NCBI RefSeq assembly: GCF_036711975.1
Contig: NC_091973.1
Coordinates: forward strand, 6,014,001 to 6,078,000
Length of the DNA: 64,000 nucleotides
Direction of reading: 5' to 3'
Origin: Onthophagus taurus
Lineage: Eukaryota > Arthropoda > Insecta > Coleoptera > Scarabaeidae
Below the pieces are notes generated by a model. It saw only the letters and a program-made list of their open reading frames with translations, made no database searches and had not been told where the DNA came from. The translations under genes were made by a program, and so were the position numbers. Of this stretch, positions 25,301-57,723 are shown piece after piece (within the stretch, counting starts at the first letter, position 1; each line of letters opens with the position of its first letter).

Positions 25301-28300
25301 CAATTAGATTTCGCAACGCCGCCGCTATTACTTCAACATCGGCCTTATCACCAAATGTGCAGGCTCGTGTGACGAAATACTAATAAATTTTATCCGTCTT
25401 GTGGACACAGACAAGATTTCGAAACTTTATATACAGTTGCGGTCAAATATTAACAATATTAAGTAACTCAGAGATACAAAAAAGCACAATTTCAAAGAAA
25501 AACTCTTCGTCATCATCTCATCAATCAAATACGATTTGCATGATACAACAAACAAGTTTATTTGAAAGGAAATCGTCGGTTGCACAAACGTTCGTTTCAT
25601 AATTTTTGAGCGATTCTGTACTCGTTCTTTAGAGACTAATAGAGATTTATAATTATATTTTATTCGCCCTCTTAACTTTTAAGTTACATCATCTTCCAGT
25701 GTTTATATAACCTACAAGGATTAATCAAAATTATAAAGAAAACGATGATAGAAAACCCCAGAACGGAAGCGGATGGTAAAATCTACGGTAAACGTCACGC
25801 GAAATGAATCACGTTCGATATCGCCGGGAAACGCGTTCATGAGTAACGTACCAGGTTCTAAATTTTCTTACTTTCCTGGAAAACACTCGACGAGTTTTTC
25901 CGTTAAAACTATGGAATTATTCATCTAGATATTCATTATTCATCTGGCTGTTAGAAGCAACAGTTCGTAACAGTTCAAGTTCAATGTTATGTGAAACTAA
26001 ATATCGAAATTGAATTTGAAGAAAATAGTTAAAGATGTATATTTTTAATGGTAAGAGATAAGATTAATTTAAAATGTATTAAATTTATATTTCCCAAAAG
26101 TAAATAAAAGATATTAAAAAGATGAGAACGTTACGAATTTATTGGTTGTGAAATTGTTTATCGATCGTAAAAATTATATAATTTAAGGTTTCGTTGCGGA
26201 CAAATTGCCGGCTTTTTCCTAGAATTTAAGTAGAGAGATGTGGAGTGAATCACCCGCGGAACGGAATCGGTAGGGAAAAAACGTACAAAAGCACAATTTC
26301 CTTTGAGAACGGAAATTGTAGATTTATGTAACGCAATACTGCAGGAACGGTTCGCTGCACTTTATATATATATACATATTGCGGTCTCTTTCTCTTGTAC
26401 ATTTAGAAATGGCGTATCGAAAATAATCGCTAGTAGAAAAGTGGCAGGAGGGGCGAGTTTATAAATAAATTGCACCCCTTCGGGTGGGCGGGTTGAACGT
26501 CCGACGGATGAATTTTTCAAGTGCTGCTTCCGAGAAAATCCCCCACGATACGAGGAGGGCGTGTTTCGTTTCCCTCGATTTTGTTTGATGTTTAAAAAGC
26601 GGTACATTTTCTCACTAACTAGTTGGTTTAAATTTACGCGAAATTAGAGCAAGGCCGTTTTTTATACCAATTGATGTTACTCGGCTGCATTTATCTACTT
26701 TGCCTTCGTGGTTTATTTGTTCGAACGAGGTTTTCGAACAAACAAATCTCTATGTTACACACAATATTAATTATTTGTTAATTAACTCAAGGTTGTTAGA
26801 TAAAACTTTTTTGTTTCAGGGCTGTGAAATCATTCCAACAACTCTTATACGTGTCGCCTTGTTTTCAACGAGCGAACGAAGTGCACCTTCGGCTCGGGTT
26901 GATGTTTAAAGTCACCCAAGAATACGAATCCGCCCTCAAACATTTTCAACTTGCTTTGGTGGACAATAGTCCATGTACTGCCGACAAAATCGCCAGTGAG
27001 TATATTAAAATAATCGATGCGTTAATAATTGTTTCCCAGCTTAAAAGGAGGATTGTTTAAACGAGACTCGTTACTATTTCTATTTTTGTACTGAAACGCG
27101 CGGCGGCGTTCGTGGCCTCGCGTTCGCTCTATCCGACGCCCGATTATTTGATAGAACGGACGGTTTTTTCCTTTTATCTAACTAGGTCAGTAGGTCCTTG
27201 CATTTTAAATAATCCCTCGCTTGCATGCCTCCGCAAAGCCAAGCTTGACCGTTTATAATTCAACTCTTGTTACGATAATGTCCAAGAAATTTTTAAATAA
27301 AGATAATAATTAAGAATTGTTTTAGAAAAAATTATTTGAAAAGAAAATTAAAATGCATTTGCTATGCTATTGCATAGCTGCTGGAACGAAGGAGACTCCC
27401 AAAATAGAAACAGAAATAATTGCGACGATTATTTTTAATCAACTATTTTCATTGGCGCAGTCAACGACCGCGGCGGCTCGCGCGTGGGTATATACATATA
27501 ATATACAGTTTTTTTTCGTAGTAAACAAATGTGAGCAAAAAAAAATCGCGATGTTAATGTCCTGAATATCAGCTGGTTAAGAACCCGCCAAGTGGCGGGA
27601 CTCTTACGTCACGCATTCTTTAAAATCAAGGTCAGAACGCTAACTCATAGTGGAATTACCTCGGCCCCGCAATGACGTTTACTTTTCCAGTTATTTTCGC
27701 ACTGTCCTGTCGGCCCCACTCAGAAACGCAAAACCGTACCGTTTTCTTATTCTATTTTTAAACCGCCACATTACACGAATTATTACTTATTTAAACAATT
27801 ACGTTTACAGTTTCCCTTTAATATACACGGCGTGTCACATGTCTGGAATATAACCAATAAACAAAAATGTTTCAAATAAAAAATTCTTATTATTATTTTA
27901 AATGCCTATTTTGATTGTAACGATTAATAAAGAAATTTGTATTTAAAACATTTTTTTTAAACCATATTATTGGCTATATTATATTATATATATTCGCGTT
28001 ATTTTTGTAAAAAATTAATTAAAAATACTACCTCGATTTGATTCCTTGATTACTTCGCATTCTTGAATCACCGCATCATCTATATAATAATTAAAAAAAA
28101 GTTTCAATCTTTGGAAGAAAAATATTTGTTAAAAAGTTATTCAAGGTCATAAAAAGATTTTGTCGCTAGATTTGATATCATGTAGTCATAAAATTAGTTG
28201 AGTTGAGGTTCGTATTCATAATGCATATTGTATTTATAAGCTATGATATTAAATACGTAAAATGTAGCGCCTCGCCCGCAAGCGACCTCGGCGAAGTGAT

Positions 28301-31300
28301 GATAAACGATTTCTCATACAAGTATTGTGTGCTTAGTTTACTTTCTAAGAGATTAAGAGAACGATTTCATCTAATATCGCCGAGGTCGCTTGCGGGCGAG
28401 GCGCTGGATTTAATATCATAGCTCTTAATTAATTAATTAATTTATTTTACCTTAATCCAATCAGATTTTGTATTTATGATTATATTAATTATTATATTAT
28501 ATTAATTATTATTATATTAAATCCAGCGCCTCGCCCGCAAGCGACCTCGGCGATATTAGATGAAATCGTTCTCTTAATTAATTAATTAATTTATTTTACC
28601 TTAATTCAATCAGATTTTGTATTTATGAGCTATGATATTAAATCCAGCGCCTCGCCCGCAAGCGACCTCGGCGAAGTGAAGATAAACGATTTCTCATACA
28701 AGCATTGTGTACTTAGTTTACTTTCCAAGACATCAAAAGTGGAGGAATTAGAACGTCGAATTCGAAAAATGCACATAAAAAATAAACAGGACCTCAAAAA
28801 CGTATTAATTGCCGAATTGATTTGATATGTTCATCGAGTAGAGATAAAAAAAATGCGCCACGATGAATAAAGAAATTTGTATTTGAAACATTTTTCTTTA
28901 AAACCAGAAATGGCGAAGTTAATGGCTATTCCAAACATTTGACACGCCCTGTATAAACGTTATTTTTGTTAAAAATTAATTAAAAATCCTACCTTGATTT
29001 GATTCCTTGATTATTTCGCATTATTGAATCACCCCATCATCTATTTAATAATAAAAAAAAGTTTCAATCGTTGGAAGAAAAATATTTGTTAAAGTTATTC
29101 AAGGTCATAAAAGACGTTATTGCACCCCACACGTGTTCTAGAATCGTCTATGAATGGCGCCACAAAAAAAAAATCTTATTCAACAACTTAATTAAAATTA
29201 ACCTGGTATTTACCGAAAATTTTGTTTTAAATTATCCCATCCCATAATTAATGAAAGATTTGGATATAAAATTACATCAAACACCATTTTTTATTTCTAA
29301 TTTCTCGTAAAATCATTAAAAAGAATAATTAAAAACGGTAATGATACTTATGACGATGATGTTTGATTATTAAGATGAAATAGTTGAAGGGAAATATAAA
29401 TTAATTAATAACTTACCACGACCCTAGAAACGATGTTCTTCTTGTGGCTGTCGGAATCGGAAAAGGAAGATTTAGCGGAAGTTAGAATTGAGATGCAATT
29501 ATTTATTGCAAATGTTGCCAATCGCATAACGAAAATTTAAAAAAATCGATAAACTATAATTTTTTTATAATTTATAATTAAAAAAAATCTTCTAAAATGT
29601 CTTTACGTTACATTTTTAATACAATTTTTAACTTTAAATTAAGAACCAAGAATTACAGTTTTCTTTAAACGAAAGTTGGGGGATTTCTTTCGTAAGGTTT
29701 GGCACGAATTTCGTAAACTTATTTGATTACTCCTCTTTGCAGTTAAGTTTCATATCGCCCATGTGTTTGAGTTGCAAGGAAAGATAAAGCGAGCAAAAGA
29801 AAGGTACGAAGCTCTCCTTCTGGACAAAACGATCAACAACACCCTGCGTGCAGACATCTATCGCCAACTAGGTAAGAAATATAGAGAATAAAAGATTAAA
29901 TTATTTAATGAATCGAAATAATTTGTAGGTTGGCTCTACCACTGTTATGACGTTCTGGGCGAAAAGGTTGCACGTATCCCTCTAGCGATTCAATGCCTTC
30001 AACAAGCAATACAAGCTGATCCATTATCGGGTCAAACGTTATATTTATTAGGACGCTGTTACGCTAGCATAGGAAAAGTTCACGATGCTTTTATTTCTTA
30101 TCGGAATTCCGTTGAAAAATCCGAAGGGAATGCAGATACTTGGTGCTCAATAGGGTAATATAAAATTAACGAATTAAAAATTAATTTATTAAAAATTAAT
30201 TTTTGTAGAGTGCTTTATCAGCAGCAGAGTCAACCTATGGATGCGTTGCAAGCGTATATATGCGCAGTGCAATTAGATAAATGTCATTCAGCCGCGTGGG
30301 CGAACCTAGGGATATTGTATGAAACGTGTGGGCAGGTGAGGGACGCGTACGTCTGCTATTTAAACTCCAGCAGAGGTCTGAAGAACCGCTCGGTGGTTGA
30401 GGAACCGTCCATATCCACTAAATCAAATCGGACCGTCTTGCCTCCCATTGGCATGAACCCCAATCTCACCCAAAGAATCAGTTTCCTCCAGACGCATCTC
30501 TCAAACGGTCCAATGCCTAGCATCACCAATGCGTAAGTTTGCCTTAAAACACAAAATTAGAATCAAGTAACAAAAATAAATTTTTAGGCGTCGTACATTA
30601 CTATCAATTGAAGAGGCTTGGAACCTACCAATATCAGCAGAAATGTCATCGAGGCAACAACAACAAACGGGCGGTCCGCAAACTCGCACCGGCAGTCAGG
30701 GATTTCAAAAAGTTTACAGCCAAACTCCGCAAGGTCCGCCTCCCCCATATCCGTCGCCGGGGGGCGCGAACAAGCGATTTAAAAACGACGGAGGAGATCA
30801 AAAACCACCCAATCCGGCGACGACGACAACGACGACGGTGACGACGACGCCTACGCAACAACCGAATCCTCCGTTTTATCTCACGCAACAACAACTCCAG
30901 TTGTTACAATACCTACAGCAAAACGCGAGCAGTTTGAATCCGCAACAACAGACCTCATTACAGCAACTACAACACCAATATCGCCTTATGCAACAGCATC
31001 AGCAACAGCTCCGCAACCAAAGACAACAAACGGTGGGGTCTCCTGCGAGTACAGCAACGACGACCCTAGCCGTAACCGGCGTAACGCAAGCAAACGGAAC
31101 GAACGTTGTCACGCCGAAATTGGTTCAACCGTCCGTTCAACCACCTGTACCTATGCCTCTTACCGGGTCAAATTTCAGTGAGATCAGTGAAGCCGATCTA
31201 CAAGATCTTCTATCGCACAAGGGTATGGCCACGACGCTCGCTGAGAATTTGCTTAAACACTTTGGATCCGACGAGATCGACATCAAGGAAGAACCTGGAG

Positions 31301-34300
31301 TAGATAACAGCCTGTCGTCGGGTCCGTTTTCGCCGTCGAATCCAGGAGACGAGGACATCACCAGAGTCGATATAAAAGAGGAAATCAAGGAGAAGAAATC
31401 ACCACCGCAGGAAATTTTAACGGTCAAAAACGAAATTCCGTGGGAATCAGAAAATTATGAAACCGATAAACGACCCGACACTGAATATAATATTAATATG
31501 GATGCTAAAACAATCTTGGAACTTTGCAAGTGTGTTATAATTCTACAATTCTTGTATACTATAAAATACCGTTTTATAACAATTTTTTATATTTAGGGGA
31601 GAAGGTGTTAAAGGAGAAATAAGCAACTCATTAATATCGGATAACGCGCCACCTCCAGCCCCTCCTGAACCGCCTTCACACAAATTAAACCACCAACAAT
31701 TGCTGCCACCAACACCTTCCGTATATTTAGACAACAAAAAGCACGCATTTAGTCCGCAACTACAAGAATTTTGTTTGAAGCATCCGATTGCGGTTGTGAG
31801 AGGTTTAGCGTCCGCTTTAAAACTCGATTTAGGATTATTCTCGACGAAGACACTCGTCGAGGCGAATCCCGACCACAGTGTAGAGGTGCGCACGCAATAC
31901 CAACAACCATCCGACGAAAACTTTGACCTGCAATCCGGACGTAAAGTATGGGCCTGCGTTTCGCACCGATCCCACACGACGATCGCCAGATACGCGCAGT
32001 ACCAAGCCTCCAGTTTTAAGGATAGTCTCAAGGAAGAGAAGGATAAGACCACCGGCGTTAGTTATAGTTTATCCGATTCCGATTCTAAGGATTCGAGCAG
32101 TTTTGTTAGACGAAAGAACAAAAACGTTCCCGCACCGCCTTCCAATAATATTAAAAATCCGAATTCACCCAAAACGTTAAAGTGAGTATTTAGCTTTAAA
32201 ATAAATAATTAAGACGGGAAAATTTTAATTGAGGCTCGTCTCTAATCATTTTTATTCCTAAGATTATTGTACAGAGTATAATATTAAAATGGCACTTTTG
32301 TATAATAAATTTATAGTGACACAGAAAAGTTTTGAGTAATTTATGGAAATTAGAAGTAAAAAGTGTTTATTAAATGAATTAGTATTAAGTGTAATACTTG
32401 AAATTGAAGCATTAACTGCGTGTTGAATTACATTTATTAACAATAATAACCAAAATTCATTTTTTAAACAGAAAAGTACTTGTATGAGAAATCGTTTTTC
32501 ATCACTTCGCCGAGGTCGCTTGCGGGCGAGGCGCTGGGTCTGATACTTTATGAACACCAACCTTAATTTAATGAGATTTTGTATTTAGGAGGCATCTAAA
32601 CGAAATCATTTATCATCACTTCGCCGAGGTCGCTTGCGGGCGAGGCGCTAGATTTGATAACACGTAGTCATAAAATTAGTTGAGTTGAGGTTCGTATTCA
32701 TAATGTATCAATTCCAACGCCTCGCCCGCAAGCGGCCTCGGCGATATTGATGAAATCGTGCACTTGATGTCTTGGAACGTAACTAAATAATGCTTGTATG
32801 AGAAATCGTTTATCATCCCTTCGCCGAGGTCGCTTGCGGGCGAGGCGCTGGGTTTGATACTTTATAAACACCAACCTTAATTCAATGAGATTTTGTATTT
32901 AGGACCCATCGCCTCGCCCGCAAGCGACCTCTGCTATATTAGATAAATCATTCTCTTGATGTTTTAGAAAGTAAAGTAAACATACAATACTTGAATAAGA
33001 AATTGTTTATTTTCATTTTGCTAGATTTGATATCGTGTAGTCATAAAATTAATTGAGTTGAGGTTCGTATTCATAATGTATCAATTCCAGCGCCTCGCCC
33101 GCAAGCGACCTCGGCGAAGTGATGATAAACGATTTCTCATACAAGTATTATGTACAGGGTGTCCAAATTTCGATGGGTTTGCAGGGTATCTCAGTTATTA
33201 TGAAAGATAGAAAGTTGCGGCTTTCGCGAACCTGAGCTACTTTTTTGTGAAACTTACAATGGCGCACCAAATTTTCATAGCCCTTTTCGTTTTTGATATA
33301 CAGGGAGTGTTTGAAATTTACGGACACCCCTGTATCTCGGCTATCCGGAAACTTAGTAAAAAGTAAAAACGGGTTCTAATAGATTTTTACACGTGGAATC
33401 CAATGGTGCACGTAGAATTTTTCTAGTCATCACGGTTTTTGACTTATAAACACAACTCAAATACTAAATACTCAACTTCTAAAATACTTAACTCTTTATA
33501 ACTCAAAAACCGTGATGACTAGAACAATTCTACGTGCAGCATTGGATTCTACGTGCAAAAATCTATTAGAACCCGTTTTTACATTTCCGGATAGCCCAGA
33601 TACAGGAGGTGTCTGAAAATCATAAATTTTGAAACACACCCTGTATATCAAAAACGAAGAGGGCTATGAAAATTTGGTTTGCGCCATTGTAAGTTTCACA
33701 AAAAAGTAGCTCAGGTTTGCGAAAGCCGCAACTTTCTATCTTTCATAATAACTGAGATACCCAGCAAACCCATCGAAATTTGGACACCCTGTACTTAGTT
33801 TACTTTCTAATACATCGAAAGAACGATTTCATGTAATATCGCCGAGGTCGCTTGCGGGCGAGGCGCTGGGATTGATATATCTGTTACCGGCAATCAATGA
33901 GGCTCAGGCAAAGTCCGAAAAGTGTAAATTAACTTCGGACTTTGCCTAAGTGGGTTAGGCAAATTAAGGGTGCGCACATTCAAAACACTATTTACTGCTA
34001 TCAGCGTTATCAACAAGCTGTCTATGTGTGCGCACTCTTTAGCTTCTTAACTAATAATAAAAATAACGGAATTGGAATTTTCCCAATACAACTCTATTTT
34101 TGTAAATAAAAAGAAACTAACAACATACATACAAAAAATAACAATACATAAGTTTGAATGGTAACATTTCGAGTTGCAAAACACTTTAGCCTTCTTACAG
34201 TTGCATAAATTTGTTTGACATTTTTTATTACACTTCAAAAACTCTTGGCCCCCGAAGGCAGAGTTTGGCTATTAATCTGACGCAGAGAGAATTCAATCTC

Positions 34301-37020
34301 TTTGACGTCTTGAATTTTCAAAAGTGTATTTTTACACGCTTGAATTTGATTTCTCGAATACAGCGAGGCAATAATTCCTTACTTGGTTCCAATTTTATAG
34401 AGTCCATCATTTGTTGTCTCCAAAAGTACGCCAATTAAGTTTCGCGCATCTCCTTTGCTTTTGTCAAGGCTTGGAACAGGCACAGTAACTGATGTTCCAA
34501 CCTCAATCGGGGGAAATTTTTTATTAGATGTAAACTTCATTTTCTCTGCCTGCTCTTTCAATCCTCCGACAGCTTTCTCTTGATTTGAAGTCATCGTTTT
34601 TCTTGTTGCACACCAAAGACATAAAACTTAAATTTAAATTAAAAAGATATTACTTGTACTCTGGGCACATATGACATGAACATTTTGCGCACAGCTATAA
34701 CACTTGTAGACTCCTGGAAGTTTCTTTTTCGCATATGCACAAACAGGTTCCAATTTTGCCATATCAACATCAAAGGCAGGAGTTGTTCCTTTAATATTTT
34801 CTGCATCAGGAAACGGAGTTGAGTCTCCAAGACTTTCTGCATTAGGACCACAAGTAGAATTCTCCTGCTCCACAGTAGTTGCAAGTGCCTTTTCAAGATC
34901 TTCTTCAGTTCTAAGAACTTTTTTGATAGAATCAGGCAATGACTGTATTCCGATATGAGCGTTTCTTCCTTTAATGAAATAGAAACTGTTATTTTTTTTC
35001 TACCGAACATCGCTTCAAAAAGTGTTTGTCGTATTCCGCATTGTTTTTCTGAATATTATTGATTGATTGATGATATTATTTCTGAGTCTTATTGCCTTCC
35101 ATCCACGCAAATAACATATCTTCTACATCCCGGTTAGATCTCTCCACACTCCCTTGACTTTGCTAGTGTCTGGGTTTGCCATGGACTATTGCTAGCTCGG
35201 GCCACACTTCCCTTAACTCGTTAACTACCCGATTAGCAAACTCTTATCCGTTGTCCGACTGCAACACGCTGGGAGTTCCCAAAATACAAAAAACATCAAT
35301 AATGTGTGAGCCATTTCCTCTACCTGTCTTCGTCTTCAATGGACGTAAAATTATGAACTTAGTTAGATGATCCTGGTAGTTAAAAATATGTCGAAATCAC
35401 CATCACGACAAGTCTTCTTTAAAGTTCTTTAAATAACAGGGGTTTAACTGTTAATCCTTTTTTAGGTTGGTTCGTTTTTTTGTGGCATACTTGACAGAGC
35501 TCTAAATAGCAAATTATTGTTTCTCAAAATTATCGCTTTTATCATTCTATCTCTTCCACTTCGCCCACATTCACGATGAGCGTTGTGAATTATGTCAAAA
35601 AGATCGTCATTTGTAACAAAATATTTTACGTCAGTAATTTACTCAGAAACCGGAAATATCGTAACGTTTAAAGCGATGATAATCAATAATTTCCTGGTAG
35701 CATTGCTTGCTTTCAATTAGAAATGAATTTGATGACTTGTTATTAATACTATGTTTTTAGCGTCCTGCTTATAAATATAATTAAGCGTATTTATACTTTT
35801 TTGTGTTAGAAACACTTTGTCCGTTATTGTTAATAAATGTTGAATTTTACCTATACTTTTTTGTGTCACTGATACTAAAAACTTCTTATAGTTACTTTAT
35901 TTTGGGGTTATAAAATATGATATTTATAATTTCAGATTTGGAACAAATGTAGATTTGTCAGATGAAAGAAAATGGCGTTCACAACTTCAAGAATTAATGA
36001 AACTTCCTGCCTTTGCTAGAGTTGTTTCAGCTGGAAACATGCTTTCGCATGTTGGTCACGTAATTTTAGGAATGAACACGGTGCAACTTTACATGAAAGT
36101 TCCCGGAAGTCGAACGCCAGGTCACCAGGAGAACAACAATTTCTGCTCAATAAACATCAATATTGGACCGGGTGATTGCGAGTGGTTCGCCGTTCCGGAT
36201 GCTTACTGGGGCGCGATTTGCACTTTGTGCGAGAAAAATCAAATTAATTACCTTCATGGATCTTGGTGGCCCGTTCTAGACGATCTATATCAGAACAACA
36301 TTCCGGTTTATCGATTCACGCAGCGACCTGGCGATTTGGTTTGGGTGAACGCCGGTTGTGTGCATTGGGTCCAAGCAGTCGGGTGGTGCAATAATATCGC
36401 TTGGAATGTCGGACCGTTAACAGCAAGACAGTATCAATTGGCCATCGAACGGTACGAGTGGAACAAATTGCAGAGTTATAAATCGATCGTTCCGATGTTG
36501 CATTTGTCGTGGAATCTGGCTAGGAATATTAAAGTTTCAGATCCAAAACTTTTTAGTTTAATTAAGTAAGTACATAAAAGAGGGGTCTTAAATAAAATCT
36601 CACCAATTTTTTTTTGTTTTTAGAAAATGTTTATTACGAACGTTAAGACAATGCTCAATGATATTAGAATTTGTTAGACACAAACATGTCGAGGTCAAGT
36701 TTCATGGAAGAGGTAAAAACGAAGCTTCGCATTATTGTGGACAATGTGATGTAAGTTATAAAGTGATTTAATTTTTTTTTGTGCATATAATTGTGATTAT
36801 TAAATTTTAGATTGAGGTATTTAACATATTATTTATAAGAGAACAAGAAAAACGACACGTCGTTCATTGCATGGACTGCGCGAGGAAACAATCAACGAAT
36901 TTGGAAGGGTTTGTGTGTTTGGAAGAATACAGCATGGAGGAGTTAATGGACGTTTACGATAATTTCGTATTACACTCGACTGTGAATACAGGGGCAGATA
37001 TATATCGGTTGCCCTCGTAA
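19358..37020 (+). CDS. Utx: Utx / KDM6 histone H3K27 demethylase
   Basis: Nuclear Fe(II)/2-oxoglutarate demethylase that removes H3K27 methylation and works with MLL3/4-type complexes. Thirteen coding exons join in frame: 19358-19443, 19496-19562, 19619-19778, 19833-19944, 26820-26995, 29743-29871, 29929-30154, 30209-30532, 30588-31529, 31597-32181, 35936-36565, 36624-36750, 36811-37020. The product is 1257 residues, near the family range. TPR repeats span about 87-395 ([30 protein letters not shown]). A Gln/Pro/Thr-rich linker covers ~430-740. The JmjC domain begins near 937; iron ligands are H999, E1001 ([10 protein letters not shown]) and H1079 (NAGCVHWVQ), with the 80-residue spacing of human UTX. 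The zinc site is C1184, C1187, C1208 and C1211. The ATG at 19358 precedes [13 protein letters not shown], aligning with the family N-terminus. Introns 4, 5 and 10 are long and carry mobile DNA. Confidence 0.95.
19945..26819 (+). other. Utx intron 4 (6.9 kb), with a GC-richer central part
   Basis: The intron lies between TTTCAATG|GTAAGT and TTTCAG|GGCTGTG. About 21060-21780 holds four diverged copies of a ~110-bp repeat starting AATATATCTAA..ACATT. From about 22300 to 24750 the DNA is less AT-rich than its surroundings and carries two perfect TGACGTCA palindromes (22447-22454, 23908-23915). A good splice donor, ATG|GTAAGTTG, lies near 23732. No open frame there resembles a known protein; an alternative promoter, 5' exon or non-coding transcript is possible but unproven. 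Confidence 0.5.
27826..28951. mobile_element. TA-flanked mariner/Tc1-type element holding GC-core cluster A
   Basis: Left end CACGGCGTGTCACATGTCTG and right end, reverse-complemented, CAGGGCGTGTCAAATGTTTG; similarity continues through AAAAATGTTTCAAATA. TA lies on both sides. A fragment [19 protein letters not shown] near 28740-28800 is weakly like a transposase C-terminus. The middle is occupied by GC-core repeats. A ~150-bp block starting GTTATTTTTG occurs inside (near 28000) and again just outside the right end (near 28961), so the locus has been partly duplicated. It sits in Utx intron 5. Confidence 0.65.
28267..28673. repeat. GC-core repeat cluster A (Utx intron 5)
   Basis: Four copies of the 26-bp core begin near 28267 (forward), 28378 (reverse), 28527 (forward) and 28648 (forward). 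Flanks read AAGTGATGATAAACGATTTC on one side and ATTTAATATCATAGCTC on the other, the two standard spacers of this family. Confidence 0.9.
29113..29742. other. Right part of Utx intron 5
   Basis: AT-rich sequence after the duplicated element flank, up to the acceptor before exon 6. No gene or repeat unit recognised. Confidence 0.5.
32508..33866. repeat. GC-core repeat cluster B (Utx intron 10)
   Basis: Seven cores start near 32508, 32622, 32718, 32822, 32910, 33091 and 33840; orientation mostly alternates (reverse, reverse, forward, reverse, forward, forward, reverse). The copy at 32910 is degraded at its end. A 637-bp foldback element splits the spacer between the last two. Confidence 0.9.
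33155..33791. mobile_element. 637-bp foldback MITE with ~300-bp inverted arms
   Basis: It begins CAGGGTGTCCAAATTTCG and ends with the exact reverse complement. The arms remain closely matched for about 300 bp each and leave a short central loop near 33460-33495. TA duplications lie at 33153-33154 and 33792-33793. No coding capacity. It inserted into a GC-core spacer at the TA of GTAC. TA targets and CAGGGTGTCC-like ends suggest mobilisation by a Tc1/mariner-type transposase (inference). Confidence 0.9.
34047..35400 (-). pseudogene. Integrase-type transposon relic (KRBA2/SCAND3-like)
   Basis: Minus-strand blocks follow the order of the integrase proteins often annotated as KRAB-A domain-containing 2-like. 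The integrase core near 35385-35070 reads [16 protein letters not shown], then [11 protein letters not shown], a stop, [20 protein letters not shown], then SQGSVERSN and [16 protein letters not shown] zinc-knuckle-like [13 protein letters not shown] lies near 34690. The linker [20 protein letters not shown] with [10 protein letters not shown] lies in 34594-34379. A Cys-rich tail [19 protein letters not shown] lies at 34235-34150. Stops break the core, so it is inactive. It lies inside Utx intron 10, opposite to the gene. Whether it derives from a Ginger-type DNA transposon or an LTR element cannot be decided here. Confidence 0.8.
35401..35935. other. Right part of Utx intron 10
   Basis: Remnants beyond the integrase relic plus AT-rich DNA with a repeated TATACTTTTTTGTGT motif (35790-35870). 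Ends at the TTTCAG acceptor of Utx exon 11. Confidence 0.5.
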
Positions 37021-38520: not shown

Positions 38521-38527
38521 TGTGGGT

Positions 38528-38553
38528 CGGCCGACGTCTTCGAAGACGGCCGT
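38528..38553. repeat. Boundary hairpin, left of cluster C
   Basis: CGGCCGACGTCTTCG continues as AAGACGGCCG. The centre GTCTTCGAAGAC is a perfect 12-bp palindrome and the outer GGCCG/CGGCC pair with a 2-bp offset. The same sequence, in the same orientation, closes the right side of the cluster near 40564. Confidence 0.85.
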
Positions 38554-38725
38554 GATTCGTTTAAAGGAAATATTCTTCCTAGGAAACGCCAAGTTGAAAG
38601 AAACCAACTTTAACTGCTTGTTAGCATCTCATCTTCTGTTAGATTTTTATTCACACCAATATGGCAGGAACTAGATCTTGTATAAGTACACAATACTTGA
38701 ATGAGAAATCGTTTATCTTCATTTC

Positions 38726-40495
38726 GCCGAGATCGCTTGCGAGCGAGGCGCTAGATTTGATATTATGTAGTCATAAAATTAGTTGAGTTGAGGTTCGTAC
38801 TCATAATGCATCAATCCCTGCGCCTCGCCCGCAAGCGACCTCGGCGAAGTGAGGATAAACGATTTCTCATACAAGTATTGTATACTTAGTTTACTTTCCA
38901 AGGCATCAAGAGAACGATTTCATCCAACACCGCCGAGGTCGCTTGCGGGCGAGGCGGTTGAGCTGATAACTTAGCTCCTAAATGCAAAATCTCATTGAAT
39001 TAAGGTTCGTGTTCATAAAGTATCAGACCCAGCGCCTCGCCCGCAAGCGACCTTGGCGAAGTGCAGATAAACGATATCTCACACAAGTATTGTGTACTTA
39101 ATTTACTTTCCAAGACATCAAGAGAACGATTTCATGTAATATCGCCGAGGTCGCTTGCGGGCGAGGCGCTAGATTTGATATTATGTAGTCATAAGATTAG
39201 TTGAGTTGAGGTTCGTACTCATAATGCATCAATCCCTGCGCCTCGCCCGCAAGCGACCTCGGCGAAGTGAGGATAAACGATTTCTCATACAAGTATTGTG
39301 TACTTAGTTTACTTTCCAAGGCATCAAGAGAACGATTTCATCCAACACCGCCGAGGTCGCTTGCGGGCGAGGCGGTGGAGCTGGTATTATAGCTCCTAAA
39401 TGCAAAATCTCATTGAATTAAGGTTCGTGTTCATAAAGTATCAGACCCAGCGCCTCGCCCGCAAGCGACCTCGGCGAAGTGCAGATAAACGATATCTCAT
39501 ACAAGTATTGTGTACTTAATTTACTTTCCAAGACATCAAAAGAACGATTTCATGTAATATCGCCGAGGTCGCTTGCGGGCGAGGCGCTAGATTTGATATC
39601 CGGTAGTCTTAAAATTAGTTGAGTTGAGGTTCGTATTCATAATGCATCAATCCCTGCGCCTCGCCCGCAAGCGACCTCGGCGAAGTGAGGATAAACCATT
39701 TCTCATACAAGTATTGTATACTTAGTTTACTTTCCAAAGCATCAAGAGAACGATTTCATCTAATACCGCCGAAGTCGCTTGCGGGCGAGGCGGTAGAGCT
39801 GATAGCTTAGCTCCTAAATGCAAAATTTCATTGAATTAAGATTTGTGTTCATAAAGTATCAGACCCAGCGCCTCGCCCGCAAGCGACCTCGGCGAAGTGA
39901 GGATAAACGATGTCTCATACAAGTATTGTATACTTAGTTTACTTTCCAAGGCATCAAGAGAACGATTTCATCCAACACCGCCGAGGTCGCTTGCGGGCGA
40001 GGCGGTTGAGCTGATAGCTTAGCTCCTAAATGCAAAATCTCATTGAATTAAGGTTCGTGTTCATAAAGTATCAGACCCAGCGCCTCGCCCGCAAGCGACC
40101 TCGGCGAAGTGCAGATAAACGATATCTCACACAAGTATTGTGTACTTAATTTACTTTCCAAGACATCAAGAGAACGATTTCATGTAATATCGCCGAGGTC
40201 GCTTGCGGGCGAGGCGCTAGATTTGATATTATGTAGTCATAAAATTAGTTGAGTTGAGGTTCGTACTCATAATGCATCAATCCCTGCGCCTCGCCCGCAA
40301 GCGACCTCGGCGAAGTGAGGATAAACGATTTCTCATACAAGTATTGTATACTTAGTTTACTTTCCAAAGCATCAAGAGAACGATTTCATCTAATACCGCC
40401 GAGGTCGCTTGCGGGCGAGGCGGTAGAGCTGGTAGCTTAGCTCCTAAATGCAAAATTTCATTGAATTAAGACCTCGGCGAAGTGATGATAAACAA
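38726..40495. repeat. GC-core repeat cluster C (Utx-Magi intergenic)
   Basis: Seventeen cores alternate strictly in orientation, starting at about 38726 (reverse), 38820 (forward), 38931, 39032, 39142, 39239, 39350, 39451, 39562, 39657, 39766, 39868, 39978, 40080, 40193, 40288 and 40398, plus a truncated copy near 40470. The spacer inside each forward-to-reverse pair is constant: AAGTG..GATAAACGATTTCTC and CTTAGTTTACTTTCCAAG. The outer spacers come in two types: TAGTCATAAAATTAGTTGAG, and TAGCTCCTAAATGCAAAATC. These alternate to give a higher-order period of about 420 bp. Confidence 0.95.
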
Positions 40496-41884: not shown

Positions 41885-47754
<5,870 letters not shown>

Positions 47755-48557
47755 TTTTTAAAAGCTCGGGTCACCTAACGAACCCGTTAGGAAGATACCG
47801 GGGGCCACCGCATAACTTGCACTACACCTGCCGCGTATTATATATTCACCGTGAGCCCTACTTGGCCGCAAAACGAATGTTTGACGGTTTGCAATATTTC
47901 AGATTCGTTCATATCACTGATTCTCTTCACACATTTCTCTCCCCACCAGTCGACATTACATACCACATCTGTCATGCTTGATTTTATCCAATTTGAAAAA
48001 GTTTATTTATTCAAATTTCATTTTATTAATCGTTTATATTTAATCTTAATACCATTTTCATTTTAAGCTAAAAGATTACAATTTTAAATGAATGCGGTGC
48101 TAATTTAATTTGTTAATTTAATTAAAAGTGGGTTACTAAAAAGTGGTTATTTCATCGAATTGGCGTTTAATAGAATTGTATCAAAATCGATTTAATTTTT
48201 TTTTATTATTTCTTAATTCAAATCATTTTACAATATTTTATTAATCACTTATTATTTACATCATTCGTTTAATTAATTAACAAATTTATTTTTTAATAAT
48301 ACCAATTTTAGAATGTTGTAATTTATAGGCAACCCAAATGTCATAAAATAACAATCGAGGAAGTGGGTTAAAAAAAAAACAAATAATTTTTTTTATACAT
48401 CCTATACTTTTACAATTAGCCCCATAACAAAAATAAAATATTTTAAACAACAATTGTCATTTTTTATTGAAACCCAAACGTTATTGCATCGCGCTGGATA
48501 TACGCCCATACACCAACTATATCCATAATGTCAGGAAAATAAATGTTGATATCATTA
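47755..48557. other. Magi upstream / Alas downstream region
   Basis: The first ~150 bp next to Magi are GC-richer and probably contain its 5' UTR and promoter. The rest is AT-rich and should hold the Alas 3' UTR. On the minus strand AATAAA-like sequence occurs near 48440, a candidate Alas polyadenylation signal. Confidence 0.5.
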
Positions 48558-50352
48558 CTAATTGGCCACCATTTGTGGACAATTAGGAATGTCGCATTGC
48601 ACCTCTGAGCGGCAATTTCCGCGTGTTCTAGCTTCGAAGTAATCAAATAGAATTGGTTTTTGACAAAATTCGCATTCCTACAACACAAAAAATTAATTAA
48701 ATAACCACAATAATAATAAATTAATTTACTTTATTGCATTGTAATCCCTTTAACGGCATATTTAAACCATTCCAAATTTCTTTCAAATCATTTACAAGTA
48801 AATTCATTAATTGGGGAGTGTGATGTGGGGTAGGAGCCAATCTTAGCTTTTCTTGCCCACGAGCAACTGTGGGATAATTAATCGCTTGTACATAATGTCC
48901 TTTTTCTCTTAATAATTTATCTGAGAGCGTGGTACATTGTAATGGATCGCCGACTTTAACGGGAATGATGTGACTTGGAGTATGCTCAATAGGGAACCCA
49001 TTCCCTATTAATTGCTCTCTCAAATACTTGACGTTTCTTTGATGAGCACCCCTTAAAGCCACCCCTTCTTCTGAAGCAAGCACCTCAATCGCTTTATATG
49101 CTCCCGCCAAAACCGTAGGGGGTAATGAAGTTGTGAATATAAATCCCGCCGCATAAGATCGAATCATATCCACCAAATTCGAAGACGCGGCTATGTAACC
49201 ACCCACATTTCCAAAAGCTTTCCCTAAAGTACCCGAGATTATATCCATGTTGTGTAATTGACCGTCTCGTTCGCCAATACCAGCTCCATGATCACCATAC
49301 AACCCAACAGCATGGACTTCATCTACAAACGTTAACGCACCATATTTATGCGCGACTTCGCAAAGTTCTTCCAAAGGACAAACAGCGCCAGTCATCGAAT
49401 GCACAGTTTCGAAAGCAACAATTTTTGGAACATTTTTATCGACGCTTTTTAATAATTCCTCTAGATGTCCGACGTCATTATGACGGAAGATATGTTTAGG
49501 AGCCCGACTGTTTCTTATTCCTTGAATCATAGACGCGTGATTTCCAGCATCTGAGAAGATGTGACAACCCGGGAGCAGCTTTGCCAATGTAAATAAAGTT
49601 GAATCATTCGCTACGAAACAAGACGTAAAGAGAAGAGCCGATTCTTTTTGATGGAGTTGTGCCAAACGGGTTTCTAAACGTTCGTGAAGGGTTGAATTTC
49701 CAGAAATGTTTCTAGTTCCTCCTGCGCCAACACCATATTCATCTAAAGCAGCACTAATAAAAAAATAAAAAAAATAAATTAAAAAAAAATAATTCAATTA
49801 TTTTTATCTTATCAAACAATAAGATATTGAATATGTGAGTACTTACTGAACTGCATTTTTTACTTCTGGATGGCATGACATGCCTAGATAATCATTTGAA
49901 CACCATACAAGGATGGAACGTTCTCCCCAAGAATATTCTTTGGCAGAAGGAAATTGCCCTTCACCAGCAAGGCGATTAACCTTCTTAAAGATGCGATAAG
50001 AATGATCTTTCTTTTTCTTAATAATTTGTTGGTGGAAAAAATTGTCATAAGGAAAAGTAGAGGTTGTTTTGGAAGAGGACTCCACATTATCAGTGGTGAG
50101 TTCAATAACATCCTGTTTGTCAACTTCTTTAACCACATTACCCACCTCAGACAAAAATGGGCAAAGATTGGGTTTGGTTTGGGCAGTGGAATCGTCCGGA
50201 ACCGTAGTTGGAGTTGCGTTGCTTATTTGGCCTTCAGCGTGATGTAAGGCTTTAGACATAACAGGACACTGCCCGCCATAAGTTTTTAAAAGAGTCGGAC
50301 CGTAATTTCTAATATAATTTTGAGTTAAACGGGTTAAAAACGGGCAAGGCAT
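48558..50352 (-). CDS. Alas: 5-aminolevulinate synthase (Alas)
   Basis: Mitochondrial PLP enzyme joining glycine and succinyl-CoA to 5-aminolevulinate, the first and limiting step of haem synthesis. Three coding exons, 49847-50352, 48730-49753 and 48558-48677, give 549 residues. The PLP lysine is K347 (SGTLGKAFG); D313 lies in [18 protein letters not shown] and [11 protein letters not shown] are also typical. The last exon must be read in the frame [20 protein letters not shown], ending CPQMVAN; this matches the ALAS C-terminus, while the longest open frame there is a different, wrong one. The N-terminal presequence carries three Cys-Pro haem-regulatory motifs: C3-P4, C29-P30 and C64-P65. The ATG at 50352 follows ACAA and gives a basic, acid-poor leader. 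An intron acceptor (TTTTAG) about 20 bp upstream suggests a separate 5' UTR exon. Confidence 0.96.
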
Positions 50353-51590
50353 TGTTTGTCTTGGAGCTAAAAGATGATTAAAATATTATATATAAACCGT
50401 CGATAAGATTTTTTTAAGTTACATAATATGATTATAAAAGTAAAAGTAAAAAATAATAACTTACTTGTTGAAAAATGTTGCAATAATTTTTTCGCAAGGC
50501 GATTACTTTTGGAGATATTAACCTGTTATAATAGATTATTATCAAGATAATTGAGAAAAAAAATGAAGTCAAGGTAATGATTGAGATGAGAGAACTTTCC
50601 CCTTTATTTACTAAAGGTTCGCTTCAATCGATATTTCGACCACTTTAAGATATAAATAACGATTCAAAAATTTGTTATCAATACAATTTTTTCCTTATTT
50701 CACGTTTTTACGTTAATAACTCAATATGTTTTGTACGAAGCAACGCGAAACACACGTTGTTAGGATACAACTGGCGAGTGTGACGAGTCAACCTCCGATT
50801 TTATTTCTCCCACTCCCAAAAATTTACTGACTCTAGTGACATTGCAATAACTTATTAATTAATTTTGATGACATCGGTTCTTTTCAAATATTTAATTAAT
50901 AAACAAAAAACAAATTTTGAAAGGAAATAACATTATATAAATTTCAAAAACAAAATTATACTCACCATTAAAGTCATAATGATTAAAGAGAAACTTTTGA
51001 GTCCACTTTCGTCCACTTTCTATTCCTTATTGCAAAAAACAACGTTTGAACCGCATTCAATTTGGTTTTATAATGGACTCGGACCTCGAAATTTCCTGCC
51101 TTTTTTACATTTATTGACGCGTGTGACAATAATGACGACCGACACGACATTCAATTTATTTATCTTTCTCTGTCGATTCAATTTACACGAAAGTAGAAAA
51201 AATCGAATTTAATAATTAAGTTTTCAATTTTTTGAAGATAAATTAAACCTTACATAATAATACGGAAACATAATTTAATACTTACAGGCTTGATATATTT
51301 TATTTAAAATTGATTTTGAAATAAGTATGAAGATTCTTCTAGAAATAATTATGACTCAGCGATGATTTTGCAGGAAGCGCTAAAACGTGTGGAATATCAA
51401 TTGGGGCTTGTTCTAAATGGAGTTATAATTAAAACAAAAATGTTTGTTATTGATGATTTTATTAAATATTTTATAGAAATTCGAACTCTTTGATACATTT
51501 TTTTAGAATGTGATGACACAAATTTTCTTTTTAATTAAAAAACAAAAATTATTTAATTTATTTACTTAAGACATTAAGTGCACGATTTCT
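50353..51590 (-). promoter_or_regulatory. Alas upstream region
   Basis: AT-rich 5' flank expected to hold the Alas promoter and a non-coding first exon. I could not fix a start site. Apart from TAATTAA runs, nothing stands out. Confidence 0.35.
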
Positions 51591-51598
51591 TCTAATAC

Positions 51599-52660
51599 CG
51601 CCGAGGTCGCTTGCGGGCGAGGCGGTGGAACTGGCTCGTAATTGGTAAATGTCATTGAATTAAGATTTGAGTTCATAAAGTATCAGACCCAGCGCCTCGC
51701 CCGCAAGCAACCTCGGCGAAGTGAAGATAAACGATGACACAAATATTGTGTACTTAGTTAACTTTCCAAGGCAACAAGTGAACGATTTCATTTAATACCG
51801 CCGAGGTCGCTTGCGGGCGAGGCGCTAGATTTAATATCATAGCTCCTAAATACACAATCTTATTGAATTATGGTTTGTATTCATAATGAATAAGTTCCAG
51901 CGCCTCGCCCGCAAGCGACCTCGGCGAAGTGATGATAAACAATTTCTCATACAAGTATTGTGTACTTACCTTACTTTCCAAGACATCAAGTAAACGATTT
52001 TATCTAATACCGCCGAGGTCGCTTGCGGGCGAGGCGGTGGAACTGGTATCTTAGCTCCTAAATGCTAAATGTCATTGAATTAAGATTTGTGTTCATAAAG
52101 TATCAGACCCAGCGCCTCGCCCGCAAGCGACCTCGGCGAAGTGAAGATAAACGATTTCTTACACAAATATTGTGTACTTAGTTAACGTTCCAAGGCATCA
52201 AGTGAACGATTTTATCTAATACCGCCGAGGTCGCTTGCGGCCGAGGCGCTAGATTTAATATTATAGCTCCTAAACACAAATGAATGATGGTTTGTGTTAA
52301 TAAAGTATCAAACCAGCGCCTCGCCCGCAAGCGACCTCGGCGAAGTGAAGATAAACGATTTCTTAGACAAATATTGTGTACTTAGTTAACTTTCCAAGGC
52401 ATCAAGTGAACGATTTTATCTAATACCGCCGAGGTCGCTTGCGGGCGAGGCGCTAGATTTAATATTATAGCTCCTAAACACAAATTAATGATATTTTGTG
52501 TTAATAAAGTATCAAACCCAGCGCCTCGCCCGCAAGCGACCTCGGCGATATGGTGATAAACGATTTCTCATACAAGTATTGTGTACTTAGTTTACTTTCC
52601 AAGACATCAGGGAACGATTTAATCCAATACCGCCGAGATCGCTTGCGGGCGAGGCGCTGG
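51599..52660. repeat. GC-core repeat cluster E (between Alas and Paip2)
   Basis: Eleven cores alternate strictly, near 51599 (reverse), 51690 (forward), 51798, 51900, 52011, 52112, 52223, 52316, 52429, 52520 and 52630. Most outer spacers are the TAGCTCCTAAA type. Cores are well preserved apart from single substitutions. Confidence 0.93.
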
Positions 52661-53856
52661 ATTCGATAGGATGACATCATAAAATTAATTTGTATTCAGT
52701 AACTTACAATAAATTGATGAAGTTGGGTTGGGAATTTTTAGTGCATCAAAATTCCAAACTAAACTTTTAATAAATTATTAATTATATATTAGTGAAAAAA
52801 AATTCGTTAAATTTGTTGATATCTTAATTTATTATATGTAGTTTAAATACACTTAACAAAGAAAGCTTATTTTTTATACAAATTCACAACCAAAAACCAA
52901 AAATGACGTAGTACTTTTTTTTTTTTTAACTCGAAACGAAGTACAGATTCTTATGTTAATGTTAAAGGGCTATGCCCACTTTAAGATAGTTGGTACATGT
53001 TGAATACAAATTCTTTTTTAGGATTCTTATGTACACGCAACTGGTGTGTTTGATAATGAAAAAAATGTAATTATAAAGTAAAAATAATGACACTAATTAT
53101 TAGTAAATATGGTTTTATACACTTTCAACTTATATATAACCTGTAAAATTTACTTCACGTTGTCCGCGGATAATATAAATATATATATATAAGTTGATTG
53201 TGGTTTTATATGAAAATATTAATTTATACAGTACAGCTTATATGCTTTTTATACAGTTTTTTAAGTATCCATTGTGATGTATAAGAAATTTGTTTATAAT
53301 AATAAAAAAAATAAAACGAAATTGTTAAACTATTTGTAAAAATTTTTTTTCGTTTTCTCACACAGCCGCATTGTATACATACATATACAAAATATATCAC
53401 AGCCAATCACTATGATAGGTTGTGTTATACGAAATGACAAAAACAAAACTATTGAAACTCATTTATAAAAAAAAAGGAAAATAAACTACTAAACACACCA
53501 GAAATTTTTAAAGATTTTTTTTTAATTTCTAATTCATTTTAAATTTTTTATCTGCGCAAATTTTTATTTTATTATTTTTTTCTTGTTTTTATTTTTTTAA
53601 ATTTCCGTACATACATAACCTCACCCATTTTAACATCGTAACCTAGAACTTGTTCTGAGTAGCCGCATAGTAAAGTCTCTTTACATGTACATTTTTTTTT
53701 TTACTTTTTCTTGTAACCGGTATTTGATATTTTTTTTTACACTTCAACACTGCGATACTACTCACGAACGCCACGCCGCCAAAAAGATAGGTAGTGGTCT
53801 CCATGTTGGTCGGTCCTTGAGATCGTCCGTGTTTTTTTTATTTTTATCAAGACAGT
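52661..53856 (-). other. Paip2 3' flank
   Basis: Very AT-rich with poly(T) and TA tracts. Probably includes the Paip2 3' UTR on the minus strand. Small open frames have no support. Confidence 0.5.
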
Positions 53857-56800
53857 TTAGGATGATTTTGACGTCTCCTTTACGGACGTTCCCTGACGAC
53901 CCCAGCTAGGCACGAATTCTGCGGCATCTGGATTTAATGTACTTGGTTTTTGTGATTCGGGTTTTCCATTTGTAGTATCTTTAACCACAGCTCTTTAAAT
54001 CAAAAAGTAATTATAATAAATTCATTACAACGTATTAATTATTACTTACTCTGCATTATTTTGAGGTTGATCATCCATCATATGTTGTAACATGCATTGC
54101 TCCATGAGTTCTTCTTCTTCTAATCTTTGCATTACCTAAACAACAAAATAAAATCTATCAGTATTTCATAGTATATCTGTATTTGATTAAATTTTGTGAG
54201 AAATGCTACGAAATTATTTGTTGCAAAACAGTTGCTTTTTGATCTCAGTTGCATGGAATAATAATAATAACTAAAATTGTTATTATAGCGTAAAAGTAAT
54301 TGATGTTAAATAGCCCTGAGACAAAATCATACAAGTGAGTGTCCAAAACAAGAAAAAACCACTTATTGAAGATTATTTCTTAATAAGTATTCAAAGCCCA
54401 TTTATGAAGATTTAAGCAGTAATAATCTTCTCAATCACTGCACAACATATATATATACAATTCAAAGATGTTTGAAAAATACTGTTGCTTCACTTTATGT
54501 GTAAGTCCAATTTAGTTTAGATTACAAACACGTGTAGCTCCTATCAGCAGATTTTTACAGACCAGTTGAGTGTTTGTGTGCTCCTACTGCTATTGTTTTT
54601 GGGATTATTTCCGTGTAGTGATAATATTTTATTTGGACAAGGAAGAAGTTAGACCTATAATAAAACTTGATCTAAATAGAGGTTCAACAATGTTCGACTG
54701 TTTTTATAAATCAAAAAGTCTAATAATGCAAATAAGTCACTACATAAATTTACGTGTTGAAATACTGGAAAAAGCAAAGAAGAAAGCGATTCAAAAAACT
54801 TTTTCTCATGTCGGAACTTTATTTCACTATTCCAGAAAAACCGGCGGATGCATCTAAATTTTACTATTTTGAAGAGGTTTTATCCTGCTTGGTTTTACAC
54901 CTTTCTAAAAACAAGAAGGCTGAAGAATGGCTGATTGCAATGAAAGCTTATTAGGACTCAGATGGAAAGACACTAAAGACGTGTTGGTTTTGAGTAATTA
55001 CCTACAGTCGGAAATCCGAATCGCAAACAGAAAGATGGAAGTGCCAATGAAATTGATGGTCCAGAAGCAATAATTGTAAATATATTTATAACAAATATAT
55101 GGGCATTATACGATTTTTTTTTATGAAGAAGTTAGCCATAAAAAAGTTCAAGGCTTCAAAAAGGACTACAAAAAGGACACCTCCCAATAGATAAAGATGT
55201 CACAAGTCAAGATGTCAAAGATATTTCTTTTCTATCTGCTCTTTTATTTTATTAATGCAGGGACAAATATATCCAAAACAGGCACTACTGCAGCGACATA
55301 CAATGACACAGATTTTATTGCAAGTTGCATACACAATTTATGCAAGTTAGAAGTAACACATAAAACAACTGCAGAATAAATGGCGTGTGTGTTCAACATA
55401 TATTAACAATAACGGACAAAACACAGTTTTTCTAACACTTGCAATTACAGCATTGATTCTATTTTTCTAGAACATACCAACTTTTTTGTGGTTTCCGCTG
55501 AAATTCTATTCCAGTCCTCAATTAATATGTTTTTGAGGTTTTGAATCAATCCCGCCCGCAAGCGACCTCGGCGATATTACATAAAATCGTTCTCTTGATG
55601 TTTTGGAAACTAAACTAAGTACACCATATTTGAATGAGAAATCGTTTATCTTCACTTCGCCGAGGTCGCTTGCGGGCTAGGCGCTAGGCCTGATACTTTA
55701 TGAACACAAACTTTAATTCAATGAGATTTTGCGTTGAGGAGCCATGATACCAGTTTCACCGCCTCGCCAGCAAGCGACCTCGGCGGTATTAGATGAAATC
55801 GTTCACTGATGACTTGGAAAGTAAACTAAGTACACAATTTTTGTATGAGAAATCGTTTATCTTCCCTTCGCCGAGGTCGCTTGCGGGCGAGGCGCTAGAT
55901 TTGTTCATGTAGTCATAAAATTAGTTGAGTTGAGGTTCGTATTCATAATGTATCAATTCCAGCATAAACGATTTCTCATAAAAGTATTATTTAGTTTACT
56001 TTCCAAGACATCAAGTGCACGATTTCATCAATACCGCCGAGGTCGCTTGCGGGCGAGGCGCTGGAATTGATACATTATGAATACGAACCTCAACTCAACT
56101 AATTTTATGACTACATGATATCAAATCTAGCGCCTCGCCCACAAGCGACCTCGGCGGTATTATATGAAATCGTTCAGTTGATGTCTTGGAAAGTATACTA
56201 AATACACAATTCTTGTATCAGAAATCGTTTATCTTCACTTCGCCGAGGTCGCTTGCGGGCGAGGCGATGGCTCTTAAATACAAAATCTCATTGAATTAAG
56301 GTTGGTGTTCATAAAGTATCAGACCCAGCGCCTCGCCCGCAAGCAACCTCGGCGAAGTGATAATAAACGATTTCTCATAAAAGTATTATTTAGTTTACTT
56401 TCCAAGACATCAAGTGCACGATTTCATCAATACCGCCGAGGTCGCTTGCGGACGAGGCGCTGGAATTGATACATTATGAATACGAACCTCAACTCAACTA
56501 ATTTTGTGACTACATGATATCAAATCCAGCGCCTCGCCCGCAAGCGACCTCGGCGGTATTACATGAAAATGTTCACTTGATGTCTTAGAAAGTAAACTAA
56601 GTACACAATACTTGTATGAGAAATCGTTTATCTTCACCTCGCCGAGGTCGCTTGCGGGCGAGGCGCTGGGATTGATATATTATGAATGTGTACCTCAAGT
56701 CAACTAATTTTATGACTACATGATATCAAATCTAGCGCCTCGCCCGCAAGCGACCTCGGCGGTATTAAATGAAATCGTTCACTTGTAGTCTTTATGATGA

Positions 56801-57723
56801 TTTACCTAATATAGCCGAGGTCGCTTGCGGGCGAGGAGATGCCTCCTAAATACAAAATCTTATTGAATTGGTGTTCATAAAGTATCAGACACAGCGCCTC
56901 GCCCGCAAGCGACCTCGGTGAAGTGATGATAAACGATTTCTCATAAAAGTATTATTTAGTTTACTTTCCAAGACATCAAGCGCATGATTTCATCAATATT
57001 GCCAAGGTCGCTTGCGGGCGAGGAGCTGGAATTGATACATTATAAATATGAACCTCAAGTATTGTATGTTTACTTTATCTTCTAAAACATCAAGAGCATG
57101 ATTTACTTAATATAGCTGAGGTCGCGATGCCTCCTAAATACAAAATCTCATTAAATTAAGGTTGGGTTTCATAAAGTATCAGACCCACCTGTTTAAAAAA
57201 TTAATTTTGGTTATTATTGTTAATAAATGTTGTTCAACACGCATTTAATTCTTCAATTTCAAGTATTATACTTAATACCAATTCATTTAATAAACATTTT
57301 ATACATCTAAGTTCCATAAATTACTCAAAATGGTGTGTTATGTGAGTGTATGTATCCCTTTTTTTCTAAATACTAAAAGATAAAAAAACGAAACTTTGTA
57401 TACATACATTTTGAAGCCAAATGAACAATATTAGATCAAATTGCAAATTATTAATGATTGTTGTAAAAACAAAGATATTGTAATGTTGCTATATTTATGA
57501 TAGTTATTTTAATGAATTAAAAAGAAATAAAGTTTACTTCTTTATCAAATTCCTCTTCATTTTCCATCCACATATATTCTGAAAAGTCACTATCTTGAAC
57601 AGGAGGGCTATACTCTTCAACGGTACCATTAGCAATGGTGAGATGATTAGTGATACCATCAGAGATGTATGCTTCATCACTGTAGGCTTCGAAGCCATTG
57701 ATGTTAGTTGGAGGTACTTTCAT
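53857..57723 (-). CDS. Paip2: Paip2, poly(A)-binding protein-interacting protein 2
   Basis: Small cytoplasmic protein that binds PABP and represses translation. Three coding exons, 57538-57723, 54050-54135 and 53857-53992, join in frame to 135 residues (human PAIP2 is 127). The PABP RRM-binding region PAM1 centres on FSEYMWMENEEEFDKE at 47-62 and continues in an acidic helix QRLEEEELMEQCMQ. The PAM2 motif STLNPDAAEFVPSW at 108-121 binds the PABP C-terminal domain. The start ATG at 57723 lies one base after an acceptor (TTTTCAG|A), so the 5' UTR exon is separate; a donor GA|GTAAGT at 57868 fits it. Intron 2 is 3.4 kb and contains a Tc1 relic and GC-core cluster F. The gene is easily missed because its exons are short. 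Confidence 0.93.
55382..55548 (-). pseudogene. Tc1-type transposase C-terminal fragment
   Basis: The minus strand from 55547 reads QNLKNILIEDWNRI then SAETTKKLVCSRKIESML and a stop, the typical C-terminus of Tc1-family transposases. The upstream part is missing; it stops where GC-core cluster F begins. Confidence 0.75.
55551..57130. repeat. GC-core repeat cluster F (Paip2 intron 2)
   Basis: About fifteen cores, near 55552 (partial), 55660, 55760, 55868, 56035, 56131, 56242, 56328, 56434, 56529, 56639, 56736, 56815, 56895 and 57000, with a remnant near 57116. Orientation alternates except where a copy is lost (55868-56035). Decay increases toward the right end. Confidence 0.92.

Follow-up and report, generated by a model that had tools for sequence, protein, structure and literature searches.

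A single box of 24 letters recurs in thousands of copies in the genome of the beetle Onthophagus taurus, within many repeat families that are otherwise dissimilar. The pattern suggests a recognised box around which repeats have been swapped, flipped and spread. The arrays, short and dispersed, belong to a single satellite superfamily built on this box, and their spacer cassettes mostly keep their polarity relative to it. The reading we favour, with a probability of about one half, is that a protein recognises the box, that the box anchors array rearrangement, and that box-bearing units are propagated preferentially (the binding, the protein and the filter are what we infer). A box that stays constant in fast-evolving satellites offers a clue to how satellites spread or function. 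Here, natural copies in the thousands, combining many spacers with both orientations, provide a ready test bed for a box protein and for rearrangement versus a chromatin role.

The window, i.e., the whole 64,000-bp stretch of DNA that was analysed, lies on contig C8 of a genome searched as 291 Mb in 33 contigs. With the 20-mer CTCGCCCGCAAGCGACCTCG as search pattern and up to 4 mismatches allowed, 58 box copies are found at 28271-57022, all of them with at most 2 mismatches. They make up six clusters and one single copy, in agreement with the approximately 60 copies in six clusters of the initial annotation:

Cluster 1, 28271..28670: 4 boxes, +-++ (20-mer search)
Cluster 2, 32511..33862: 7 boxes, --+-++-, split by an inserted element (33153-33793) with TACAGGGTGTCC ends
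Cluster 3, 38728..40419: 17 boxes, strictly alternating, with a 418-bp higher-order unit (4 boxes)
Cluster 4, 44419..44715: 3 boxes, all on the minus strand (20-mer search)
Single decayed box, 47435..47454: plus strand, 2 mismatches
Cluster 5, 51602..52653: 11 boxes, strictly alternating (20-mer search)
Cluster 6, 55551..57022: 15 boxes, +-+--+-+-+-+-+-, the first box without an upstream flank

Counted by hand, orientation alternates in 44 of the 50 neighbouring box pairs less than 200 bp apart, the six exceptions falling in clusters 1, 2, 4 and 6, and the inverted layout of the window has spacings of 96/110/102/110 bp. The initial annotation had described this alternation with two constant spacer classes; the classes are real, although not strictly constant. 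As a defining trait, however, alternation does not hold, since many arrays carry the same box head-to-tail. By eye, the last box of cluster 4 (44696-44715) appears inverted in place with respect to both flanking spacers.

The GC content of the window is 34% and its observed/expected CpG ratio about 1.29 (2,352 versus 1,826), so the region is AT-rich, as had been noted, yet not CpG-poor. Pfam matches support the JmjC exon of Utx (35892-36569) and the WW/PDZ exons of Magi (42565-44235), and the adjoining clusters, previously assigned to introns, would be intronic judging by their position. Other tandem arrays in the window (4833-6624, 9301-11051, 12621-15990 and 1-331), with 353-bp, 304/244-bp and 127-bp units, are without the box.

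The conserved 24-bp box has the consensus GCCTCG[C/G]CCGCAAGCGACCTCGGC, and its sequence can be read as three 8-bp steps, GCCTCGGC, CGCAAGCG and ACCTCGGC. A genome-wide count of copies revealed a far more abundant box, with 7,383 copies (3,613 forward and 3,770 reverse) at up to 2 mismatches and with C or G at the fifth letter of the 20-mer. The C form has 6,220 copies at up to 2 mismatches, the G form 1,933 exact copies, and the window's 26-mer 815 exact copies. Given that the reversed-pattern control yielded 0 in all four counts, chance is ruled out as the source of this abundance. Among the first 100 places listed, the arrays are short and lie kilobases to megabases from each other. Relatives of the window's 418-bp unit with at least 80% identity are confined, among the matches listed, to C8 (1.7-6.7 Mb) or C2:19.08-19.09 Mb, hence the spread is partly local.

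Around listed exact boxes, 44 regions (L009-L052) were fetched, all on contigs C1-C3; they were selected for intact boxes and are not a random sample. Statistics on spacer grouping, divergence, information and the hairpin refer to the window and 40 sampled regions (L009-L048), where 585 box copies are found at up to 4 mismatches, 584 of which have full flanks and were retained. Statistics on spacing, flank switches, cassette joins, cluster counts and element ends refer to the window and L009-L052.

Sorting 522 spacers from 63 arrays by similarity yields 8 groups at E<1e-3, 10 groups at 1e-4 and 15 groups at 1e-6; with shuffled spacers as a control, the hits numbered 3 (1e-3), 1 (1e-4) and 0 (1e-5). 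No homology is detectable between the groups, and the same box is present in each; one group accounts for 37 of the 63 arrays, including all six of the window. When each of ten groups is given the same weight (583 of 584 copies, grouped according to locus; two of the groups comprise just 2 and 3 copies), the information content is high over the stretch -2 to +21, apart from the C/G letter, and drops outside, where the surround is semi-conserved. The six CpGs attributed to the core are those of the window's 26-mer, but the two outer ones vary across spacer groups.

The core had also been described as steadier than its spacers, and this was borne out with copies picked by their flanks only. The core-blind test (3,018 pairs from 453 units found by flanks alone) removes box-selection bias within the sampled regions, and superseded an earlier divergence test whose copies had been chosen by box. 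Box divergence is 0.033 at a flank difference of 0.016 and 0.078 at a flank difference of 0.26, versus 0.047-0.095 at low and 0.33-0.45 at high flank difference for four 20-bp flank blocks given the same treatment; core and spacers thus evolve at unequal rates, and the constraint on the box is visible at every age and increases with age. Among the 453 flank-detected units, 218 have a perfect box, 105 have one mismatch and 3 have 13 or 14 mismatches, so that 235 are not perfect. Because the core changes more slowly than the spacers and persists across 8-15 spacer groups without detectable homology, it can fairly be taken, from these sequence comparisons, as a recognised site, as had been proposed. 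A filter at propagation and selection on single copies are both compatible with the constraint.

A box without function is also conceivable, as a relic kept alike by gene conversion among thousands of copies or through chance slow change. Local homogenisation does occur, given that the relatives of the window unit at 80% identity or above are, among the matches listed, mostly on the same contig. However, gene conversion would need a sharp stop at both sides of the box in each of the groups, the mid-spacer blocks of these arrays show unrestrained drift, and the box letters are retained across groups without spacer homology; we regard this explanation as quite improbable. As for methylation, transitions at CpG letters average 34.0 of 584 per letter versus 24.5 at other C/G letters, and with a ratio of just 1.4, strong germline methylation of the boxes is unlikely.

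The 584 copies lend little support to the small hairpin that the initial annotation had drawn within the core. Letters 4 and 11, its innermost pair, form a standard pair in 59% of copies, given that 206 copies have G instead of C at letter 4 with no matching change at letter 11. For the outermost pair (-3 with 22) the share is 53%, with 49 double-changed copies that pair and 125 copies that are T-T, and few double changes occur at the pairs in between. A role of the box as a hairpin, be it in RNA or in single-strand DNA, is, in our assessment, very improbable. In the G form, the reverse strand has a folding energy of -15.0 kcal/mol, a value equally low in 3.3% of 2,000 letter shuffles, and the inner pair 6 with 13 presents 11 double changes versus 3.6 expected, 9 of them paired. 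The C form, which is the one in the window, is nevertheless ordinary (31% of shuffles are equally low), compensation is small at most pairs, loop letters are conserved like stem letters, and at gathering cut-offs Rfam yielded no match, whether in the window or in the five loci searched.

Strand-blind sorting divides 493 spacers from 48 arrays into 55 types, and sorting with the box-adjacent letters trimmed divides 508 spacers into 81 types. The majority of the common spacer types keep one context, i.e., both ends at the same box side or one end at each, hence the layout of an array is set by the cassettes it uses. The two commonest types, A and B, are found in both relative arrangements (e.g., L043 versus L048), and 3 of 47 arrays contain the same spacer type in both orientations. 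Leaving out 75 spacers with unclear orientation, the 119 spacer ends meet in 107 distinct joins. Two or more partners are seen for 43 of these ends, and all four possible combinations for 8 end pairs. Some cassette flips may be single old events that were copied many times.

Counted by pairs, flanks change far more at the box than within a spacer. Among pairs from different loci that resemble each other in one 25-bp flank (84% or more), the opposite flank is unrelated in 1,023/1,746 at the box versus 16/1,510 across a mid-spacer gap (of equal length, in long +- spacers only); within a locus, the corresponding counts are 211/2,216 and 4/976. With 20-bp arms and all spacer classes, the counts between loci are 1,047/2,065 across the box versus 68/2,256 (+-), 306/2,638 (-+) and 11/154 (direct), and those within a locus are 145/2,149 versus 16/1,404 (+-), 58/1,378 (-+) and 19/869 (direct). 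Outside the largest group, where numbers are small, 48/86 across the box between loci compare with 34/40 in -+ spacers and 8/151 in direct ones, so the contrast fails for -+ spacers. Identity profiles place the switch point at about -8 to +22.

The pairs in these counts are interdependent. With similar arms grouped into clusters, the switch occurs in 21/56 at the box versus 9/50 in the spacer with 25-bp arms (Fisher p 0.03), and in 14/41 versus 15/51 with 20-bp arms (p 0.66). A noisy cluster count of 1.86 joins per type at boxes versus 1.40 within spacers agrees with the modest 25-bp-arm contrast. Given the non-independence of pairs and a contrast by clusters that is modest or absent, we hold exchange at the box to be no more than likely. 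As a possible trace of cleavage, a reading that was set aside, a few arrays end inside a box (L013 1208, L043 3538, L045 1949 and window 55551), and a scan for half-boxes yielded 37 matches (13 left and 24 right) versus 6 in reversed sequence, many of the matches being decayed copies.

Under the favoured reading, a sequence-specific DNA-binding protein, perhaps transposase-derived, would recognise the box, and breakage or exchange at boxes would flip, swap and amplify cassettes. Units with a damaged box would fall out of this cycle, which would leave the box constant while the spacers drift. A stronger version, in which the box is a true site-specific recombination joint and a genome-encoded recombinase cuts and rejoins the 24-bp site and thereby inverts, swaps and multiplies non-coding cassettes, seems to us a long shot; if true, it would be an animal counterpart of cassette shuffling. 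The tyrosine recombinase family has 38 matches in the genome, 37 of them above the cut-off (e.g., L056 and L057), which by eye we take to be Crypton-like, and the CENP-B_N domain has 117. Both sets of matches probably stem from mobile elements, and no box is present in the two tyrosine recombinase loci and two CENP-B_N loci examined. CENP-C_C has no match in the genome, a result of little weight given that the search had no animal control.

The closest known system, as far as the cited accounts describe it, is that of the conserved boxes of Meloidogyne satellites, and the role proposed here for the box is likened to that of the junction site proposed there. In Meloidogyne, the 17-bp, CENP-B box-like Box 1 is found among satellites as little as 32% alike, and the monomer switches exactly at the box (PMC3694981); a CENP-B box-like motif is reported for 11 satellites of divergent sequence, and an association with CenH3 for short arrays from five divergent families that have a 19-bp box (PMC9673304). 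Both systems keep a short box among divergent monomers, have short dispersed arrays and suggest protein binding; as for a switch at the box, the excess in the present data is strong by pairs and modest or absent by clusters. The present box differs in sequence and host, is GC- and CpG-rich, has more spacer groups and has cassettes in both orientations, whereas a CenH3 link is known from those accounts for Meloidogyne alone. Relative to them, what is new is that Meloidogyne-type traits occur in a different animal group, where the box has a sequence of its own, the spacer groups are more numerous and orientation flips are present.

The association with CenH3 also bears on a host chromatin function, in which a box-bound protein would organise chromatin, the box being a host-selected centromere-type or nucleosome-phasing element. 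In direct (head-to-tail) arrays the spacing is mostly 84-93 bp, and inverted arrays present spacings of 74/102, 73/110, 63/68, 49/73 and 57/72 bp. Considering arrays with at least 4 boxes, mean spacing is 84-93 bp in 21 of 49, direct or inverted alike, which is about half a nucleosome repeat, and the commonest box-to-box distances are 172-179 bp; two boxes may thus fit each nucleosome-sized step. Yet the remaining 28 arrays have mean spacings elsewhere (69.7 to 157 bp), window clusters 3, 5 and 6 among them at 103-105 bp, and common ancestry of an 88-bp unit would produce such spacing equally well. The arrays are also short and within or near genes, and many boxes are decayed, with 235 of the 453 flank-detected units above lacking a perfect one. 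We consider a chromatin function unlikely.

Quite unlikely, in our view, is an origin of the arrays as terminal or subterminal parts of foldback-type DNA transposons, with the box as a transposase-binding repeat. Foldback-like layouts do exist, given that L014 consists of 17 minus and then 9 plus boxes and L033 of minus and then plus boxes, and the CENP-B_N matches are in keeping with such an origin. The arrays of L033 (1270-5188; C1:6080500-6087000) fill one intron of a gene that we take, from its reading frames, to be a carboxylesterase, with a 2.6-kb element inserted between the minus and plus arrays. The Rehavkus transposon is described as having satellite arrays in its inverted termini (PMC10218199). 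However, when the edges of 33 clusters were compared all-against-all, few flanks were shared (e.g., window 32511 with 57022, and repeats inside L022) and no terminal sequence was common, and no coding element common to the arrays was recognised among open frames judged by eye.

The same comparison of edges led us to reject a shared transposon around the arrays, and inspection of the edges of 69 clusters revealed no common foldback, Helitron or MITE ends. A Helitron 3' end (a hairpin followed by CTRR) was rejected as well, because CTAG follows the box only partly in the largest group and other groups differ. Short satellite arrays associated with Helitrons in oysters, often between Helitron boxes at element ends according to the cited description (PMC8268682), are similarly short and scattered along chromosomes; unlike them, the box arrays present no common flanks at the 33 clusters compared. 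The macro-dyad satellites of Tribolium, described as subarrays of several kb inverted in (peri)centromeric regions (PMC13081366), also change orientation within arrays, as L014 and L033 do by turning once mid-array, whereas most inverted box arrays turn every 50-110 bp at the shared box.

No match to a described satellite was found in a comparison that had Repbase and Dfam outside its scope. An 18-letter stretch of the C form had no occurrence in the literature searched, and the titles and abstract openings contained nothing on the box. Neither the C form nor the C/G form has an exact match in IMG/VR, and the 22-letter C/G form has none in prokaryote genomes, whereby a viral and a bacterial origin were rejected. 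The CENP-B box of alpha satellite is likewise a short site with CpG inside satellite units, and is regarded as attracting a protein derived from a transposase. The present box was rejected as a CENP-B box, given that its best match is 9/17 letters and 900 of 2,000 box shuffles are as good or better. In the wasp Nasonia, a 1994 study of junctions on the PSR chromosome reportedly linked palindromes to them. Several satellite repeats of that chromosome have a conserved palindromic motif in common (PMC10462710), as the box is common to several repeats here; the PSR motif is described as a heptamer and belongs to B chromosome arrays, and the likeness drawn here is one of description.

Abundant element ends with the sequence TACAGGGTGTYCC also occur beside the arrays, with 2,450 exact copies in the genome versus 10 for the control. 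In the fetched sequence, with one mismatch allowed, they are enriched near boxes (11 in 76,922 bp versus 7 in 206,614 bp elsewhere), and are found in the window (33153-33793, 44769 and 47396) and in L042, L045, L046 and L047. Finally, a 527-codon COX1 frame that is open under the invertebrate mitochondrial code is embedded in a nuclear contig at locus L053 (C1:21446788-21448128). It lies beside ND2 and COX2 frames, of which ND2 is also open under that code, and these frames are either a recent nuclear copy or an assembly join.
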